Origin: Sycon ciliatum
Lineage: Eukaryota; Porifera; Calcarea; Leucosolenida; Sycettidae
Direction of reading: 5' to 3'
NCBI RefSeq assembly: GCF_964019385.1
Contig: NC_088643.1
Span: 14,237,300-14,301,299, forward strand
Length of the DNA: 64,000 nt
In this document: in pieces, positions 1,331-48,899 of the stretch
How positions within the stretch are numbered: position 1 is the first letter of the stretch
Layout: each line of letters begins with the position of its first letter
Notes under the pieces: model-generated
Database searches by the model: none
What the model was told of the DNA's origin: nothing
What the model saw: only the letters and a program-made list of their open reading frames with translations
Translations under genes and position numbers: made by a program

Positions 1331-1818
1331 CCCTTATTGGCTGCAGCCATTGTAAGAATATAGATTATACATTATTATTCACGTTCATTCACCAAACGTG
1401 TCGCTGGTGTCAAAATAATAAGCTACAATTGTTGCAGATATGTTAGTTTGAACATGTTCATGTAATTATACACTTGCAGGTGTAGCATTCGGGATAATTC
1501 TCATAATGATATAGGCCACTGCCAATATAGATAATAATTATTATACAATTTGAAACTCGGATGTTGAGCCATAAATAATATGTAGAAGAGAAAAGGACAT
1601 ATGGATACGAGTTAAGAGTAACTATCCATCACTGTAACATGATACTATATACAGTCAGAAAGTGCAATAACTAGGCACAAAACTACATCAATTATTATAC
1701 AATTTGGAGATTTAGTAAACTTAGAGAATACAGAGGATAGAGAGAGAATGCATTATGGCGATCACTATGGACCGATTCCAGAAGGAAGACAGTTCAATCT
1801 GTTGACACTTGTATGTGC

Positions 1819-2628
1819 TTAGCAATTATACTTTCGACACTCCTTCTTGTGGCTGCAAGAATATCCAGTGATGATAAACGAATCACTCGCTGCCTCGAGC
1901 TTCCAGTCTTCAGTGCTGTTCGCACGTCTCAGATGCAGCGGGTGGTATATGCTGGCGGTACAGCCGCAAATGTCGGCGGCGTCCACTTCCGTGTCAATAT
2001 GGTGCACATAACTGAACATGTGCGTGGGAATGGTTTCATGCGTTGTGCTAAGCCGTTTGCACGCCCAATGATTCACACAGTTATCCTGGTGAGGGACATC
2101 CGGTTGCTTGGGCGCCAAGGGATGGTTTTGGTCTTTGCAGTAATAATCGAATTCCAGCTCATGGAGAGTACGTACAAGCGGTAGTGTTCTTCCATCAGGG
2201 CCGATGTATTCAGTTTCTGGTGCAGCATTAGATTGAACGCATGACACGTTGGCCTTTGCTGCTGGCATTGCTTGGGCGCTCTCTAGAAGATTGGCCCAGA
2301 ATGGACTCAGCATAGCCATAATGACAATAACGACACGATGACTGCACTCCTCCTATAAGACACATTTGCGTGGAAGATAGCACAACACAATTTGGCTGCT
2401 GAGATAAAGAATCAATTGGTAATGATATTACATGTGTACATTGTAGTACACAAACTGTAGCTAGAGTGACGATGTTGAACAGCACTAAAAGGCCCCATAC
2501 TCCCCACCTGAATGTTTCAGCCTTCAAGGCAGGTTGATATAATCAGGTCCACAGATTGTTTAAGCTTTGTAAAGATTTTATTCAAATTTCTCACTATGAG
2601 CCGGTTAAACAGCAGATCCTCTTACCAT
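1819..2628 (-). CDS. Secreted cysteine-rich protein, copy 1 (two exons)
   Basis: Unrecognised family. Gene model on the minus strand: start codon 2626-2628 immediately followed by donor GTAAGA, intron 2353-2625, acceptor CTTATAG, exon 2 from 2352 to the stop at 1819. The product is about 178 residues: M, then EECSHRVVIVIMAML..., a hydrophobic signal peptide ending around ESAQA, then a mature chain with nine cysteines (ASC-type, YYC, DNC, WAC, ICGC, YSC, KEC, YNC). The first sequon is NVS here and the second is NST in RRANSTEDW. This copy differs from copies 2-6 at about ten residues, for example CKDQNHPL for CNDQNHPF. An alternative is translation from MAML inside exon 2 without splicing. I infer secretion from the signal-like N terminus. 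The spaced IC-GC and YSC cysteines loosely recall cystine-knot cytokines, but no family is claimed. Confidence 0.7.
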
Positions 2629-2807
2629 GTTTCTGCTTTCGGTGAGAGCTGAGGAGTTGGTGTTCCCGACACAGAGCGTTGCTTATTCACAGGACAAGCA
2701 GCTACAACTTTCAACTCGCCTGATATTCTCTTTGCTTCGGGCGACTGGTCCGTCGAAAGTGAACTTATGGAGAAGATGAACTTGATGGTTTCCTCGAGAA
2801 CATTGAC

Positions 2808-2815
2808 TTTATATA
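2808..2815 (-). promoter_or_regulatory. TATA box of copy 1
   Basis: The minus strand reads CCTATATAAAG about 180 bases before the ATG at 2628. The same box is at the same distance in all seven units. No in-frame ATG lies between the expected transcription start and the start codon in this copy. Confidence 0.55.
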
Positions 2816-4302
2816 GGCCATGATGTCCAGCTGTAAGCAGCACGAATCCGGCGTAGATGAGTACGTTGGAAAAGGTGTATTGGGGCATTGGACAAATACA
2901 CGTTAACTGTTCTAAGAAAAGGGATTTCTAAATTTCGATTGTGCCTGTTACAATCAACGTGTTGCTGGAAACAATCAAGAAGTTGTCGCTCGCCAACTTT
3001 TGAAGAGGGTATGTTTGTAAAGTAGCTATTAGCTATAAGTAGCTATTCTTGGTGACGTGTGTGGCTAGCATGCGACTCAAATCAAGCAGATGCAAGTGTT
3101 TCAAAAGAGGGGATGCTGGAGCTGCACACCGCACAGATATTCCGTCACATGATAACCCGTGACCTGCCTTGCCCATCCATACTACTGGGTGATTCGATAG
3201 GACACTACGCGTCGATCAGACCACCCACCATTCACTTAGCAAGATGCCATGTTTCCACTCTTTGGGGGCCAGATCGTCAAACAGGGTGGAGGCTGTGGGC
3301 AAATTGAGTTCCAATTTATACCGCCCATTCGAGTGTATGTTCATCTTCATCCCGCGAGCAGATGTATACTCTCCAGGACACAAAAGTAACATGCATTGCA
3401 TGATCACTATTGTGTATTGCTGGGACTCGAAATGGCTGCCATTATGTTAGTTTTTATTCCAGCGGATCACCTCAAATACAATGACGTAAAGCACGGTCAC
3501 CGTCACTAATTTCTGCGAGTACACGTTAAATGAATACTAAATGGAAACCGGCCTCTCTGATAGTCCTACCTACACCAATCTACTATCTATTTACGTATCT
3601 GCCCACCTACCACTAACCTAAATATATACGTACATTGTACACACAGGCCTATATCTGCATTCACAACCTCTGCCATTGCTGACTGCCAAGTCGCATTACA
3701 GAAGTGCCACGTGAATCATGTACATGTACAGTCATGTATATACATGTACATCATCATAGTATGGATGCAGTCATAGTGTCGCACACACAACAAATACCAA
3801 TACTAGTGCATGCCAAACCATCTTCCTGTCTGAAAGTGTGCTCGGAAAGCTATAGTATTGTAATGTATGTGTATTTCGAAGGACATCATCTTGCAGCTTG
3901 GTTGTGCCATAAACATACACCACTCTACAGTCAAGAGAAATACGTACCTCAAACCACCCACCTGTATGGTAGGGCATTCCACCATCACCCGTTGCTCTGG
4001 GTGGTGCGGAAACCAGCAGGGATTAAAAAAAACCTTTGCCTTATAAGCTAACAGCACTGAAACCGACATTAACGTATTGCAAACACGTCATTTTTAAAGC
4101 CCATCTGTTTTCCCCCTAATCCCCGGAGCACAGTTTTCATCTAAATAGGCTAGATTTTGTTGGTCGTTTTTGGCAAAGGGATAGATAAGATGTCGCCTGA
4201 GAAATGGGCACTTTATCTTCACATTACTTTTTACCACTCACTACCAAAACTACCAGGGCACGTGATGACCTTCAACGCTTATCAGAATAGTATAAAGACG
4301 TA

Positions 4303-4502
4303 NNNNNNNNNNNNNNNNNNNNNNNNNNNNNNNNNNNNNNNNNNNNNNNNNNNNNNNNNNNNNNNNNNNNNNNNNNNNNNNNNNNNNNNNNNNNNNNNNN
4401 NNNNNNNNNNNNNNNNNNNNNNNNNNNNNNNNNNNNNNNNNNNNNNNNNNNNNNNNNNNNNNNNNNNNNNNNNNNNNNNNNNNNNNNNNNNNNNNNNNNN
4501 NN
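4303..4502. other. Assembly gap (200 N)
   Basis: A run of exactly 200 N. It lies in the 5' flank of inverted unit 1, so unit 1's junction with the unique DNA at 4503 is not resolved. Confidence 0.99.
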
Positions 4503-5184: not shown

Positions 5185-5228
5185 CTCAACTGATGAGGGG
5201 TGAATTCCCCGAAACACTGTGTATTGAG
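5185..5228 (+). ncRNA. Type I hammerhead ribozyme (candidate)
   Basis: The plus strand has every hammerhead core element in order. CTCAA is the stem I 5' arm (5185-5189). CTGATGA is the core (5190-5196). GGGG-TGAATT-CCCC is stem II (5197-5210). GAA is the core (5211-5213). ACA-CTG-TGT is a short stem III hairpin (5214-5222). A at 5223 is the cleavage-site residue of a GUA triplet. TTGAG is the stem I 3' arm (5224-5228). The open end is stem I, so it is type I. A three-base-pair stem III is typical of retroelement hammerheads. Only one copy is seen here and no tandem monomer was found. No cleavage has been shown. Confidence 0.7.
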
Positions 5229-6580: not shown

Positions 6581-8102
6581 TATTTTATCCCTGTGTGCCT
6601 CAGCCAAGTAAAATCTTTCCCAGTAGGTGAAAGATATGTCACGGAGATTACGGGGAAATGCAGATAGGCTGTAAAGACGTGTTTGTAGTGCATTGATATC
6701 GGTTTCAGTGCTGTAAACTTAGAAGGCAAGTCAAAACTCTGGCCAAGCAGGATGATCGCAAGAGAAGCAGGTGCTGGCGGAATGCGCAACCATACAGGTG
6801 GGTGGGGGGGCTGATTTCCGTCTTGAATGCAGGGTGATGCGTATTTCTCGCACAACCAAGCTGGAAGGTGATATCCTTTGAAATGCACAGAACTAGCCTT
6901 TCGGGCAAACTTTCAGAGAAGACGAGGGATTGGTATTTTTCGGTATTGTTTGTGTGTATGGATGTGTTTGTGTACATACATGCATGACGTGGCCCTTCTG
7001 CATTGCGACTAGGAAGTCAGCAATAATGACAGACGTCGTAACGTTAAATGGAGATGTACAGTGTACATGTACATGTACGTACGCATGTACCAGTGAAACT
7101 ACAGATGTAGGTGGTGGTAGTGGTGGTGGTGGGGTTACTAGCAAAACAATTAAGGTTACTGGCACTAGTAGGTAAGCAGATGCATCGATTGGTAGCAGGT
7201 AGGTAGGGTTATCAGGGAAGTAGGTTGCCATTGGAATTGACTAGAAACAAGTACGTAGATTCCCAAATTGAAGACAAAAGCAAGACCCCTGAGAACGACA
7301 TTGAGTAGTTTGATTGTGCATCTTCTGATCTTGTCCCGCCTCATCATATCAGATTTACATATGCACAGTCTTGAATGGTTAAAAGTGTATGTGTGGCAAG
7401 AAAGATTCAGCTTATTGTTTTTTTTTTGATGATCCAATGGAATACTAACACATGGCCGTAATTCGTGTCCCCGTATTGCACAGCAATGACCACTGAAATG
7501 CATGTCGCATTTGTGTCTTGAGGCGTACATGTATGCTTCTTTTGATGCAATGATGGGCTGAAGAGGAACACACACTGGCATGGGCACGTCGAACACAATC
7601 CACGTTAGTTTTGCCCACAAACCCCAACTTGTTTGACGATCTGGCCAATTGCTTTATGCAACCAGCCCCACAAAAAGTGGAAACATGGCATCTTGCTAAG
7701 TGAATGGTGGGTGGTCTTATCGAAGCGTAGTGTCCAATCGAATCACCCCGTAATATCGATGGGCAAAGCACGTCAGGGGTTATCATGTGACGGAATATCT
7801 GTGTGGCGAGTGACTCCAGCATCCCCCTTTTGAGGAACTTACATCTGCTTGATTTGAGTCGCATGCCAGCCACAAACTCCACCAGGAATAGCTACTTTAC
7901 AAACCTACCCTCTTCAAAAGTTGGAGAGCGACAACGTTTTGATTGTTACCAGCACCACGTTGCTTGGAACAGGCACAATCGAAAATTAGAAATCCCCTTT
8001 TCTTAGAACAGTTAACGTGCATTTGTCCAATGCCCCAATACACCTTTTCCCACGTACTCATCCACGCCGGATTCTTGCTGCTTACAGCTGGACATCATGG
8101 CC

Positions 8103-8289: not shown

Positions 8290-9114
8290 ATGGTAAGAGG
8301 ATCTGCTGTTTTACCGGCTCATAGTGAGAAATTTGAATAAAATCTTTAAAATTTAAAGGCTTAAACAATCTGTGGACCGGATTATATCAACCTGCCTTGA
8401 AGGCTGAAACATTCAGGTGGGGAGTATGTGGCCTTTTAGTGCTGTTCAACATCATCACTCTAGCTACAGTTTGTGTACTACTTGAAGTACAATGTACACA
8501 TGTAATATGATTACAAATTGATTCTTTATCTCAGCAGACAAATTGTGTTGTGCTATCTTCCACGCAAATGTGTCTTATAGGAGGAGTGCAGTCATCGTGT
8601 CGTTATTGTCATTATGGCTATGCTGAGTGCATTCTGGGCCAATCTTCTAGAGAGCGCCCAAGCAATGCCAGTAGCAAAGGCCAACTCGTCATGCGTTCAA
8701 TCTACTGCTGCACCAGAAACTGAATACAACGGCCCTGATGGAAGAACACTACCGCTTGTACGTACTCTCCATGAGCTGGAATTCGATTATTACTGCAACG
8801 ACCAAAACCATCCCTTTGCGCCCAAGCAACCGGATGTCCCTCACCAGGATAAATGTGTGAATCATTGGGCGTGCAAACGGCTTAGCACAACGCATGAAAC
8901 CATTCCCACGCACATGTTCAGTTATGTGCACCGTATTGACACGGAAGTGGACGCCGCCGACATTTGCGGCTGTACCGCCAGCATATACCACCCGCTGCAT
9001 CTGAGACGTGCGAACAGCACGGAAGACTGGAAGCTCGAGGCAGCGAGTGATTCGTATATCATCACTGGATATTCTTGCAGCCACAAGAAGGAGTGTCGAA
9101 AGTTTAATTGCTAA
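8290..9114 (+). CDS. Secreted cysteine-rich protein, copy 2 (two exons)
   Basis: Exon 1 contributes only ATG (8290-8292) and ends at the donor GTAAGAGG. The intron is 8293-8580 with acceptor GTCTTATAG. Exon 2 is 8581-9114. The junction is in phase 0 and gives MEECSHRVVIVIMAMLSAFW, a basic then hydrophobic leader, with predicted cleavage after LLESAQA. The mature chain (about 146 residues) has nine cysteines, an odd number that would suit a disulfide-linked dimer. Sequons are NSS and NST. An in-frame stop (TAG of the acceptor) directly precedes exon 2, which supports an exon boundary there. The protein is identical to copy 3. The nearest AATAAA is about 785 bases after the stop (near 9899). 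Function unknown. Confidence 0.72.
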
Positions 9115-10077
9115 GCACATACAAGTGTCAACAGATCGAACTGTCTTTCGTCTGGAATCTGTCCATGGTGATCGGCATGTAATACATTCTCTCTCTACCC
9201 TCTGTATTCCCAAAGTTATCCAAATCTCCAAATTGGACAATTTATCTAATTTGGCAGTGGCCTATATCATGATGAGAATTATTCCGAATGCTACACCTTC
9301 AGACAATTACATGCACATGTACTTCAAGTACATATTGTCAATTACTTTACGTTTGGGCTTGGTTTAAATCTGGCTTTGGAAAATTATATTTTGCAATTTC
9401 TATCAGGTTCAGCCTCATTTCCTCTGTGCTGCGCTGATGAGTAAAGAAAGAATGGAACAGCTCTGTTCTCTGAGTACTGTCAATTACATGTATATACTGG
9501 CATATCTGCAAAAATCGTAGCTGACTTTTTGACACCAGCGACTAGTTTGATGAATTTATGTATGGATTGCACAACACTTTCAGCTCGTGCTTAACTTGGT
9601 TGCGCTCACCTTCCTGTCCTTATATATTTTTTTAATAATTTACAACCTTCCCCGTTGGAAGGCTGTTGGAGTGAGCATCTGATATGTACTAGAGTTGATT
9701 GTCAGTTAGGTGTAGAACGTCAGTACCGCTGGTCAGTGTCGTGCAATGTTATCGCATGAGCTGGTTGTCAAGTACTAAGTAGCTGGTGGTGATAGTGGAC
9801 ATTATAGTGTAACTTGTAGCTCTTTTGGTCCTCTTTTCGTCTTATAGCTTAATTATTGGCTCTCCACCCGAGTCTAACCTAAATATGTAATAGATAAAAA
9901 TAAAAAAAGTGTGAAGGACTGGCTTTCCCAAGTCCCGTAACATGGCAGCCCCTGTTGCGGCCGAGCCGCCCCTTCACAGCTAAGGTCCTGTGCACAATTG
10001 GTCAAGTCAAATAGTTAGTTCCGAAGTACGAGTCGTACAAATCAATAGTACAGCAGAAAAGGAGCAGCAAACACGTA

Positions 10078-10425: not shown

Positions 10426-12144
10426 GGTGTGTTGATTAGCAATGGGTGTTGGTGTTGACGGTAGAGGTGGGAAAACTGGCAAGATGTGCACGATATGGTA
10501 AGGGTTGACAGGTTTGATGGCAACAGTCAGATGTCTGACTGCAAGCGTTGCAATCAGGCAGGCCTGGTGCTTTAATCCCTTCCCTGAGCCTCTCCAAATG
10601 TCACTGTCATAATCGGGGAGAGGGCCAGTCATGCTCTCAGGCTTTCCATTTTCCAATCCCAATATTCTCAGTTCCAGGAAATATAACAGGACTCCAGTCA
10701 CCCATTCCGCACCCTTACCATACAATACGACACAACTTTAATTCAGACCCAAGTTACGAGCACAAGCAACAGAGATAGCAATTCAGAAATCAATGCTGAA
10801 CAGCGAGCTATAAACCAGATCGCGTGGAAAGAAGTTTTAGCCCTTTGAGGCCCATAGTAAGCGAGCAGCCAGCACTGAGCTTGAGTGGTAAAGGCACAAT
10901 AAAGCTATTCATAACCTAGACGCTTTAACGCCACAGCCAACACCTGATTGGGGCAGAAATACACACAAGTACTCCAGCAATACACGGACATGACGTCACC
11001 AATACAAATGCAGTAGTCTCTTTATAATCCAGCACAATTTCTTCTGCGGAGATTCTCATGAATTAGCGAGGGATCTGGATTAGCAAATCTGATACTGCTG
11101 CAATGTGCATGAAGAAGACAATTTGGTTAGTGAAAGTTGTGCTTGTTCAAAACATTAACGGGTGGTGAAGGTGCGATTGGAACTTGAATGAAGAAATACT
11201 GATGTGTTGATGTGATGAGGGTGTGAAACACATGGCAGCACTCCCTACATCCAGCTTTTAACAGGGAACTTTACTTGGCGTTTAAACGCATCAAACAATC
11301 ACTCCCACATGGAACACTCGCAAAACTACAAACTGAGACATCTACAATACAATGAACATTTCAGCTACGTCTACATGTTTAGGTAGTGATGATCTCCTAA
11401 TATGTAATGGCTACTGACTAATGTGTCGAGGCATACATCCATTACATTAATTTTGTCGCCCACACTGGATATGATCAGAAGTACGCGTTCACTTCTTCAA
11501 CAATTATTTTAAGAACGAGTTCTGTGTGCAGTCGAACGTGTTCTGCGTTATCTGCGCGTACATCAGAGTATAATCAGTCATTGTATATGTACGTGTATAC
11601 ATGTAAGTTCACTTTACACCAGGGTTCGGAATGTAACTGTTAGTGGCACTGGACATCCTGGCGTGGTCGCCAGAAAGGACACAGTCACCAGTACGTCTTT
11701 ATACTATTCTGATAAGTGTTGAAGGTCATCACGTGCCATGGTAGTTTTGGTAGTGAGTGGTAAAAAGTAATGTGAAGATAAAGTGCCCATTTCTCAGGCG
11801 ACATCTTATCTATCCCTTTGCCAAAAACAACCAACAAAATCTAGCCTATTTAGATGAAAACTGTGCTCCGGGGATTAGGGGGAAAACAGATGGGCTTTAA
11901 AAATGACGTGTTTGCAATACGTTAATGTCGGTTTCAGTGCTGTTAGCTTATAAGGCAAAGGTTTTTTTTAATCCCTGCTGGTTTCCGCGCCACCCAGAGC
12001 AACAGGTGATGGTGCAATGCCCTACCATACAGGTGGGTGGTTTGAGGGACTGATTTCTCTTGACTGTAGAGTGGTGTATGTTTATGGCACAACCAAGCTG
12101 CAAGATGATGTCCTTCGAAATACACATACATTACAATACCCAAT

Positions 12145-12192
12145 GCTGTAGACAGCAAGCTGTTTCGGCCATAAAGGCCTCATCAGTACAGC
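12145..12192 (-). ncRNA. Type I hammerhead ribozyme, monomer 1
   Basis: Minus strand, in order: GCTGTA (stem I), CTGATGA core, GGCC-TTTAT-GGCC (stem II), GAA core, ACAG-CTTG-CTGT (stem III hairpin), C as cleavage-site residue (GTC triplet), then TACAGC completing a six-base-pair stem I. Cleavage is predicted between 12151 and 12150. Confidence 0.88.
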
Positions 12193-12381
12193 TACGAGCT
12201 AAATAGGCCGAGCTACCAGCCATGGTGCAAAGGAGGCACCACAGACATTAAGGTAGCTCGTCGCTCTAGCGCCAGAGTGCTCAAACTACAAAATGCAGCG
12301 GGCATTGCGCGATGCAGCAGCACTAGAGCAGCCTACTGAGAGTGCTCAACAAGGCGAAAGCCGAGGAGCGTGATACCCAAT

Positions 12382-12429
12382 GCTGTAGACAGCAAGCTGT
12401 TTCGGCCATAAAGGCCTCATCAGTACAGC
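12382..12429 (-). ncRNA. Type I hammerhead ribozyme, monomer 2
   Basis: Identical to the motif 237 bases to its left. Two cleavages on the minus-strand transcript would release one exact 237-nucleotide monomer with ends suitable for circularisation. Confidence 0.88.
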
Positions 12430-13139
12430 TACGAGCTAAATAGGCCGAGCTACCAGCCATGGTGCAAAGGAGGCACCACAGACATTAAGGTAGCTCGTCG
12501 CTCTAGCGCCAGAGTGCTCAAACTACAAAATGTAGCGGGCATTGCGCGATGCAGCAGCACTAGAGCAGCCTACTGAGAGTGCTCAACAAGGCGAAAGCCG
12601 AGGAGCGTGATACCCAATGCATACATTACAATACTATAGCTTTCAGACACGAAGATGGTTTGGCATGCACTAGTATTGGTATGTGTTGTGTGTGCGACTC
12701 TATGACTGCATCCATACTATGATGATGTACATGTATATACATGACTGTACATGTACATGATTGACGTGGCACTTCTGTAATGCGACTTGGTAGTCAGAAA
12801 TGGCAGAGGTTGTGAATGCAGATATAGGCCTGTGTGTACAATGTACGTATATATTTAGGTTAGTGGTAGGTGGGCAGATACGTAGATAGATAGTAGATTG
12901 GTGTAGGTAGGATTATCAGAGAGGCCAGTTTCCATTTAGTATCAATTTAACGTGTACTCGCAGAAATTAGTGACGGTGACCGTGCTTTACGTCATTGTAT
13001 TTGAGGTGATCCACTGGAATAAAAAATAACATAATGGCAGTCATTTCGAGTCCTAGCAATGCACAATAGTGATCATGCAATGCATGTTACTTTTGTGTCC
13101 TGGAGAGTATACATCTGCTCGCGGGATGAAGATGAACAT

Positions 13140-41738: not shown

Positions 41739-41938
41739 NNNNNNNNNNNNNNNNNNNNNNNNNNNNNNNNNNNNNNNNNNNNNNNNNNNNNNNNNNNNNN
41801 NNNNNNNNNNNNNNNNNNNNNNNNNNNNNNNNNNNNNNNNNNNNNNNNNNNNNNNNNNNNNNNNNNNNNNNNNNNNNNNNNNNNNNNNNNNNNNNNNNNN
41901 NNNNNNNNNNNNNNNNNNNNNNNNNNNNNNNNNNNNNN
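41739..41938. other. Assembly gap (200 N)
   Basis: A run of 200 N separating the GA tract of unit 7 from the SPRY exon. The gap probably reflects the microsatellite, so the end of the array and any unit 8 are unknown. Confidence 0.99.
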
Positions 41939-41939
41939 C

Positions 41940-42455
41940 GTGAAAGGTAGTCCTCGTGCGTTGTTGGTGTCCGATCCTCCAAAGTTTGATGGAAGTCGCT
42001 GCGGCAATCAAGTGAAGATCGGTGATGATGGTCACTCCCTAAGAACGAGAAACATCGTCAATAGTTGCTGGTCATCGGCATGTACGGAACCTATGGGGAC
42101 CAAAACTGGTATCAGTACATTGAAGATGAGGATTGACAAGACCGAACGTGGTAACGTCTTTCTCTCTGCCTGCTCAGCAAGCAAGCCTATCCTGGAACAT
42201 TACCAGCAGAACAGGGAAACGTGTTTCGGTTGGTATGGCGTCGGCACAGTGGCGTATCACACTGAAGCAGTAACAGCCCTCAGTCAGCCCTGGCAGACCG
42301 GCGACATCATTCATCTAACAGTTGATCACGATCGGCACACCCTCACCGGTGTGCAGACGAGAACGGGCGCCACGGAAACCATCTCGAATGTCACCGGTGA
42401 CCTGTACTGGATTATTTCGCTCTACAATGTTGGTGATCAAATCACTCTGATTTGA
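41940..42455 (+). CDS. SPRY-domain protein, C-terminal exon (partial)
   Basis: The open frame emerges from the gap without a start codon and ends at a TGA at 42453-42455, giving 171 residues. It reads as most of a SPRY/B30.2-type beta-sandwich: WSSACTEPMGTKTGISTLKMRID, then CFGWYGVGTVAYHTEAV, then WQTGDIIHLTVDHDRHTLTG, and the diagnostic end NVTGDLYWIISLYNVGDQITLI. SPRY domains are protein-interaction modules found in TRIM, RanBPM and many other proteins. The upstream domains that would identify the family are in or beyond the gap. The frame is clean and its codon usage looks coding. Confidence 0.8.
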   Translation: MKGSPRALLVSDPPKFDGSRCGNQVKIGDDGHSLRTRNIVNSCWSSACTEPMGTKTGISTLKMRIDKTERGNVFLSACSASKPILEHYQQNRETCFGWYGVGTVAYHTEAVTALSQPWQTGDIIHLTVDHDRHTLTGVQTRTGATETISNVTGDLYWIISLYNVGDQITLI

Positions 42456-47493: not shown

Positions 47494-47567
47494 GAGTGTG
47501 CGAGTCAGGAAAATATTGTTCTTCTACAAATCCTATACAACTTCAAAGGAACTTGCACAGATCCTAC

Positions 47568-47750
47568 CTTTTCTGCACATCTCAACAAGAAATTGATATC
47601 ACTGATGAGCTCTCCATTGGCCAGGTTACCCTCAAAGAGCACTTCAACCAGCTCAGTCTGTACTGCAGGGCTGATCTTTCCAGCGTAGTCAACAAGGCAA
47701 TGTGAGTACACGGTATTCCCCAGCCGCCTGTCCGCATCCAAGTTCAAACC
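47568..47750 (-). CDS. DsbA-family oxidoreductase, middle exon
   Basis: Minus strand, acceptor GACGTGCAG, 61 codons in phase 0 at both ends, donor GTAGGA after GCAGAAAAG. It encodes GLNLDADRRLGNTVYSHCLVDYAGKISPAVQTELVEVLFEGNLANGELISDINFLLRCAEK. The NTxxxH and LVEVLFEGNLANGELISD blocks match the family pattern NTxxAHRL...LxxAYFxEGxDIxD of the FrnE/DsbA-like group. The phase agreement with both neighbouring exons strongly supports the model. Confidence 0.78.
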
Positions 47751-48899
47751 CTGCACGTCGGTAGCCCAGCCGGGCCAAACACACAACACATAGGCAGGAC
47801 ATTGCACTATTATAAGTGTTATCCGCACCGAACACCAGAGTACTCAATAGATCATCTAGTCTACGTCGATAGCTCATGCAGGAGTACCATCATAACTTCA
47901 TAGGCAATTACAAACCGCACGTACAGCACTGTCGGTCGCCGAAGAACTCGGAGATCGGCCTCCAAGCCTACAGTCTATTCATTGGAAACTGGCACCCTCA
48001 CTTTTTGGTGTCTCTCTCACATAGTTGTAGATATCGTGAAAACAACAGTACATCCTGCGTTGTGTGACCCGTGCAATTACTCCTTGCCACATTTGAGGCC
48101 AGAAAAGTCCAAGAACAGGGAAATAGAAATTCAGCCAGGTTTTACAAAATTAGGACAGGTATGCCATGGCAAACTGTATGGAGAAGCAGATCCAAAACCC
48201 AGATTTTTGATCCTCAGTTCGGCCCAAATCCGACTTTCAAAAGCCAGCGGGCCAGTTTCCAATGAATGGACTGTAGACCATTCTTATGTTCATGTGCTAC
48301 AGTCTATGCACAGTTGAGTCACCGTGTATACACTGGTACGCTGTGCTTGGTGAAATTCCAGCCTGTTCATTCTACGGTGCCCAACAGCACCAGCGAAAAG
48401 CCAGGCAGCCAGAAGAGCAGACCTTGTGCTTTACCAGAACATGTAGTCAGTGGGTTACGGGTCTCCTGGAATTCATTGCAGGTTTGTGTACTCGAATAGC
48501 AAGAGGGGGTGACCATCGTCCTCACTATGTCGAGCTCATTGAAACAGGTCTCTGACACCTCCTTCTGGTCAACGGTCAGAATAGGGCTTGAAAGTGAACC
48601 ATCAGAAATCAACCTCTTAGCCTGGTAAACGACACATTACGACTTTTGGGTCCGCTCTGCCCACAGCGAAGTACAGTGTGTGTGGTGGGTAGGCCCCTTG
48701 TGAAGCATGCAGGTGTATACTGTTTCTGTACCAGGAGTGGGTCCCTGACCGGGAGGGCCCAGTCTAGTCACGACTGGCCAATGCGTCACCATGCCGTGAA
48801 GAAAACCACCCAAGTGAGTTTGGATCCATACAGATACAGGATCCAGAAAGGCAGCGCTGTTGTCATGAGTCTTCGCCTATTGCGGTTGGTCGGAGGTTA

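Follow-up and report, generated by a model that had tools for sequence, protein, structure and literature searches.

The 64,000-nt stretch of the Sycon ciliatum genome analyzed here (hereafter, the window) contains a short tandem insertion that is very probably a non-autonomous, metazoan-type non-LTR retrozyme, probably copied into DNA from a circle of monomer RNA. Retrozymes of this kind are already known; the new part is the anatomy of their insertion, as read from the junctions and the internal variants of dispersed copies. Across these copies, the arrays are dispersed through the genome, end at a fixed 3′ position, begin at variable 5′ positions, are flanked by target duplications, have gapless seams between units, and rarely combine different variants in a single array. 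The junction pattern, as far as genomic DNA can report it, fits target-primed reverse transcription proceeding round a monomeric RNA circle, with copying apparently initiated at the base of hammerhead stem I.

Structure of the insertion and its empty sister sites

Two units of 237 bp stand in tandem at positions 12136–12372 and 12373–12609 of the window and differ from each other at a single position (12296 C versus 12533 T). Tandem Repeats Finder delimits the array at 12136–12620 with a period of 237 and 99% matches, which bears out the two tandem monomers described in the initial annotation of this DNA. The insert is flanked by a direct repeat, for which the same annotation had given a length of 14 bp: the repeat is indeed perfect, but it is 15 bp long (CATACATTACAATAC, at 12125–12139 and 12620–12634) and includes a 4-base microhomology. 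The microhomology, which at the left junction reads ATAC and closes the 15-mer, is common to the target and to the element repeat, and therefore 11–15 bp of the direct repeat represent target DNA.

Strictly between the two repeats lie 480 bp (12140–12619, minus strand; 2 × 237 + 6), with the RNA sense running from 12619 to 12140. RNA positions are numbered here from the first base after the predicted ribozyme cut (+1). In RNA sense, the first (5′) unit (12388–12619, minus strand) begins at about RNA position 6 and comprises 232 of the 237 nt, and the second (12151–12387, minus strand) is full from predicted cut to predicted cut, with 237 nt and a G+C content of 54%. It is followed by a 3′ tail (12136–12150, minus strand) that reaches 11–15 nt past the second predicted cut and consists of TACAGCATTGG and the target-shared GTAT; this is the usual end of arrays in the family (37 of 40).

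The insert interrupts a repeat of which other copies are present in the window, and these sister copies are empty, as had been proposed. In all five close copies (left flank 91–98% alike), the insert is absent at the aligned site, and the 15-bp target sequence is represented once, being intact in two copies, reduced by nine alignment columns in another two, and reduced by five in the remaining one. For a sixth, partial copy (6610–6889, 71% alike), the alignment ends just before the insertion site. The 15-bp repeats and the empty sister copies together thus indicate an insertion with target duplication. Local satellite duplication or an assembly artefact, with no mobile element involved, had been named as an alternative at the outset; other tandem repeats do occur in the window, but the dispersal of the copies, the target duplication, and the five empty sister sites leave this explanation with a negligible probability.

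The element lacks coding capacity, the longest stop-free stretch being 54 codons when the unit is read round as a circle. The monomer RNA is highly self-paired (z of −2.43 versus shuffles, a stability matched by 3 of 200 of them), and 66% of its bases are paired in the circular minimum fold. A Pol III B box was absent from the element at up to two mismatches, and A-box-like strings in it were only weak. The exact hammerhead 25-mer was absent from viral_contigs, a collection that is a poor place to look for an animal element.

Predicted hammerhead ribozymes

Judged by its motifs, each unit is the carrier of a type I hammerhead on the minus strand, the type being assigned by strand order (open at stem I). 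In agreement with the initial annotation, which had described complete ribozymes in both monomers, the predicted stems as well as CUGAUGA, GAA, and GUC are present in both units. The inner part of stem I comprises 6 bp, stem II 4 bp with the loop UUUAU, and stem III 4 bp with a CUUG loop. The first core (inner stem I, stems II and III) is located at 12145–12192, with the predicted cut at 12151/12150, and the second at 12382–12429, with the predicted cut at 12388/12387, both on the minus strand. In four of five constrained folds, an outer stem I of five pairs (GCUCG/UGGGU), three of them G-U, is formed beyond a 2 × 2 internal loop; with this outer part, the two candidate hammerheads extend over 12138–12199 and 12375–12436 (minus strand) and are identical in letters.

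A scan of the window with a motif descriptor yielded three matches, namely both units and a site at 5190, compared to none in 60 windows simulated with a first-order Markov model. The Rfam scan of the window that the initial annotation had proposed turned out less favorably: at the gathering score it reported tRNA only, all hammerheads fell below that score (Hammerhead_3 at 25.9 bits versus 48.5, RAGATH-1 at 17.2 versus 56.3), and the type I model was not listed. The catalytic fold differs from the free minimum in isolated pieces, and in five longer contexts it lies 0.6–4.4 kcal/mol above the minimum and is the lowest-energy fold in none. Stems I and III are built of near-identical strands and therefore have competing pairings. 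Among 102 units of the family, the core pattern is intact in 95, and variability averages 0.0084 in the hammerhead versus 0.0174 elsewhere.

Dispersed copies in the genome

A search of the 538-Mb genome (313 contigs) with a two-unit query returned 88 match pieces. The genome-wide search for other copies suggested in the initial annotation was thereby answered with dispersed copies at 40 loci, a number that gives the loci read (40 scored among 1,324 first-look candidates) and not the total copy number. The best array was read at each locus, namely in the window and at all of the 39 further loci listed; second pieces in L013, L015, L016, L035, and L039 were left out of the counts. The two-unit query selects for a matching phase and for lengths of roughly two units and above, and the range of array lengths, 1.92 to 6.29 units, applies to the 40 arrays so chosen.

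A separate 200-kb sample (20 stretches of 10 kb from contigs 1 to 3, 5,000 positions of it being N) contained no array of the 237-nt family and a single 25-nt match. This match (L048, 292–316; 96%) corresponds to the last bases of the element and ends at RNA +13, and it is perhaps an extremely 5′-truncated insertion, observed as a single case.

Insertion junctions

In 37 of the 40 arrays, the RNA-sense 3′ end falls between +13 and +16. The exceptions, as aligned, are L037 (+9), L041 (125), and L035 (204), and L041 has an apparent deletion just before the usual end. Since the two-unit query might favor a particular phase among arrays with two to three units, whereas phase hardly matters for longer ones, the ten arrays of at least 3.05 units were counted separately, and nine of them end at +14 or +15. 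Following GGG (+10 to +12), T is found in all 37 anchored arrays and then A in 36 of them, with target DNA next. The UA at the 3′ junction is common to the element and to its TA-rich targets, in which the A+T fraction of the flanking 30 bases is 0.74 on one side and 0.69 on the other, compared to 0.55 farther off.

Exact duplications of at least 9 nt flank 22 of 38 arrays, L035 and L041 having been dropped before this count. In 100 shuffled pairings, for which flanks of different loci were combined, the corresponding number averaged 2.1 and never exceeded 5. In the other 16 of the 38 arrays, no duplication of at least 9 nt was found, and in nine of the 38 it is shorter than 7 nt. The identification of the window element as a retrozyme, put forward in the initial annotation, is thus supported at the level of genomic sequence by the dispersed copies, the preservation of most cores (95 of 102), the duplications far in excess of shuffled expectation, and the empty sister sites.

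The 5′ ends of the 38 arrays are scattered over unit positions 1 to 231, though not fully evenly (Rayleigh p of about 0.003; Kolmogorov–Smirnov p of 0.13), with positions 76–155 holding three of the 38. The closeness of the 5′ end to the predicted cut in the window copy had been taken as the mark of a cleaved or circular RNA. That reading of the 5′ end is rejected because the 5′ ends scatter; it is the 3′ end that is fixed.

Variants within arrays and the ligation seam

Nine positions with common variants were compared within the 38 arrays that have two or more full units. All 38 arrays agree internally at RNA 135 (shuffles: mean 21.1, maximum 28) and at RNA 215 (shuffle maximum 35); agreement was found in 36 arrays at both RNA 175 (shuffle maximum 30) and RNA 87, in 35 at RNA 94 (shuffle maximum 22), and in 34 at each of RNA 18 and RNA 32. 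At RNA 93, the agreement in 35 of 38 arrays is no higher than the shuffle maximum. RNA 15 shows no agreement (24 of 38, versus a shuffled mean of 26.0), as expected if the last base is target-derived. With RNA 15 excluded, standing variants are mixed within one array in 11 cases; across 200 shuffles, this happened 93.2 times on average and never fewer than 79 times. At four sites taken together, 34 of the 38 arrays contain one haplotype and four contain a mixture. Mean identity is 0.985 within arrays and 0.972 between arrays. For 55 of 100 units, the nearest or tied nearest unit lies in the same array (shuffled labels: mean 5.2, maximum 13), and the units are monophyletic in just 12 of the 38 arrays. 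Among 194 array-columns in which units differ, the minor letter is rare elsewhere in 129 and common elsewhere in 65; in 50 of the latter, it is the majority letter of the family, and RNA 15 accounts for nine of the remaining 15. Across the cut/ligation seam (RNA 230 to 12), none of the 102 units has a gap or an insertion.

These observations bear on how a multimer could have arisen. Template jumping is familiar from the R2 literature, which speaks for a reverse transcriptase moving between separate cleaved linear monomers; such jumping predicts mixed haplotypes and scarred seams, and the single haplotypes in 34 of 38 arrays and the 0 of 102 scarred seams make it extremely unlikely. Together with simple satellite growth, it was rejected on the grounds of haplotypes, seams, and dispersal. 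Uniform arrays would also result if unequal crossing-over or replication slippage had enlarged a monomer or short multimer after its retrotransposition. This is highly unlikely too, given that unequal crossing-over requires more than one unit at the outset and that the non-integral lengths, the fixed 3′ end, and the outer duplications place the multimer inside the insertion event.

A further alternative retains the retrozyme but takes as the template, in place of the ligated circle, a multimeric RNA that was transcribed from some existing array and stayed linear and uncleaved. Arrays in the genome reach 6.29 units, multimeric RNAs are reported for axolotl (PMC7229834), and uniform source arrays would yield agreement within each new array. 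Such a template would need several hammerheads to be left uncut, and an extra reason would have to be found for a single internal start among several identical positions. In addition, the minor letters, rare elsewhere in 129 of 194 columns and equal to the family majority in 50, look like late private changes and not like patterns passed on from unit to unit of a source array. A linear multimer template is thus considered unlikely, and copying from a monomer circle remains the preferred explanation.

Proposed insertion mechanism

For copying from a monomer circle, the following series of steps is envisaged. The genomic array would be transcribed (from the minus strand in the window), and its hammerheads, to judge from their intact motifs, would cut the RNA into 237-nt monomers, which a host ligase may close into circles, as suggested by published relatives. 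A reverse transcriptase from another retroelement would nick TA-rich DNA, and the target 3′ end (…TA) would pair with the UA at RNA 13–14, at the base of stem I, where copying would begin. Copying would then cross the ligation seam and continue for about two to six rounds of the circle (as gauged from the arrays sampled) to a variable stop, and joining of the second strand would leave the target duplication, mostly of 7–16 nt where visible. From a start at +13/+14, several units could not be templated by a cut linear monomer, though they could be by an uncut multimer.

We also propose, tentatively and with somewhat less than even confidence, that the hammerhead has a double role: it would set the size of the RNA and, re-formed in the circle, would present stem I as the 3′ landmark of the reverse transcriptase for a TA-primed rolling start. 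If this is true, the start shared by the two families, whose best 111 nt are about 71% alike, would hold as a rule among the retrozymes of the genome analyzed and would provide junction-level evidence for ribozyme-made RNA circles as insertion templates. In the literature searched, no such junction evidence for ribozyme-made circles was found, and neither the fixed 3′ end 13–16 nt past the cut nor one-haplotype arrays were encountered in the portions examined. A circular-template model was set out in 2020, according to which primed circular RNA should give tandem cDNA (PMC7229834, in part); in the literature examined, this model of how animal retrozymes enter DNA is not accompanied by junction data (PMC7229834). 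The present arrays offer a countable signature, namely a single 3′ end beyond the ligation seam, 5′ ends that vary, arrays of one haplotype each, and TA-ended targets, which makes the circular-template model testable in other retrozyme genomes. The signature also suggests a short 3′ landmark (the hammerhead plus about 12 nt) by which the partner enzyme might be sought.

Comparison with known ribozyme-bearing elements

The closest likeness is to the metazoan non-LTR retrozymes of Acropora, Mytilus, and axolotl, compared here by description (PMC7229834). Shared features are one type I hammerhead per unit, dispersed and non-coding copies, units of a few hundred bp arranged as dimers to multimers, and a highly self-paired RNA. 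Target duplications exceed 4 bp in both (15 bp in the window, compared to 4 bp in LTR retrozymes), and the predicted 4-bp stem III, judged by sequence, is likewise of a kind that might work as a monomer. Animal non-LTR retrozymes are given there as about 170–400 nt long, and the 237-bp unit falls within a range of about 150–450 bp for metazoan retrozymes. The known metazoan elements have a G+C content under 50% in the same source, in contrast to the 54% of the window unit; low G+C is a reported tendency and is not taken as defining. Duplications of 15 bp have also been described for the hammerhead repeats of Nematostella vectensis and were likened there to those of LINEs (PMC4918200, in part); this comparison, again by description, involves a different host.

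Penelope-like elements and Terminons, according to PMC7229834 and PMC7761336, resemble the window element in carrying type I hammerheads in tandem. Unlike the non-coding window unit, they encode a reverse transcriptase, and their hammerheads are minimal, whereas stem III in the window comprises 4 bp and a CUUG loop. Assignment to the Penelope-like elements was rejected since the window element encodes no reverse transcriptase. Plant LTR retrozymes, as described in PMC4918200 and PMC7761336, are likewise non-coding, ribozyme-bearing retroelements, with circular RNA on their side of the comparison. They differ in having type III hammerheads, a length of about 700 bp, LTRs, and 4-bp duplications, and an assignment to this class was set aside in view of the type I hammerhead and the 15-bp duplication in the window.

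A second retrozyme family and other hammerhead-like repeats

The 200-kb sample contained a second retrozyme family, represented by an array of about 1.5 units of 228 nt (L053, approximately 3184–3531), with identical letters in the 120-nt overlap between units. Its G+C content of 47.8% lies under 50%, as in the known metazoan retrozymes (PMC7229834, in part). The array sits inside a AATACTAT microsatellite, and its target duplication therefore cannot be told. The unit is alignable with the 237-nt family along its length, the figure of 71% being for the best 111 nt, and its 3′ end reads GAG and then TA, at a position homologous to the GGG and TA of the 237-nt family. Out of 14 hammerhead pairs compared between the two families, nine are unchanged, four have compensatory changes, and one is broken. 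Just 3′ of the L041 array of the 237-nt family, a further L053-like hammerhead is followed by CGCAGATTGAGTA and then by TATATA.

A third hammerhead-like motif in the window (5185–5228, plus strand) has a stem II of GGGG/CCCC, a GUA triplet, and a stem III of 3–4 bp; Rfam lists no hammerhead at this position. The repeat that bears it is not tandem in the window, and another copy, from the 200-kb sample (L049, approximately 8938–9223, minus strand), is 80% alike over 311 nt and identical from CTCAA through the hammerhead. This repeat is perhaps a second kind of hammerhead-bearing repeat.

Other features of the window

Reverse transcriptase fragments are located at 123–1333 on the minus strand (RVT_1, best E-value of 5.6e-23) and are LINE-like by look; the fragment at 126–770 has 3,580 homologues at an E-value of 0.001 or better. 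Among the 120 of these that were listed, two are labelled with a source: an EukProt protein bearing an scpid identifier, a prefix that PMC6526912 employs for the calcareous sponge Sycon ciliatum, and a protein assigned to a Bacteroidota metagenome assembly. There was no sign that the reverse transcriptase at 123–1333 serves the retrozyme. Runs of exactly 200 N at 4303–4502 and 41739–41938 are probably scaffold gaps. Weak matches below the Pfam cut-off were obtained for SPRY (41943–42452, plus strand; E-value of 0.035) and DSBA (47508–47843, minus strand; E-value of 0.00075).

Between about 8500 and 40300, the window contains six direct units, spaced approximately 5–7 kb apart, each with an open reading frame for a 177-aa cysteine-rich protein (93–100% alike). 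No Pfam family was assigned to this protein in the two copies scanned, its AlphaFold model is poor (mean pLDDT of 37.2), and two homologues were found. An inverted partial copy of the same unit is located near 1700–4200.
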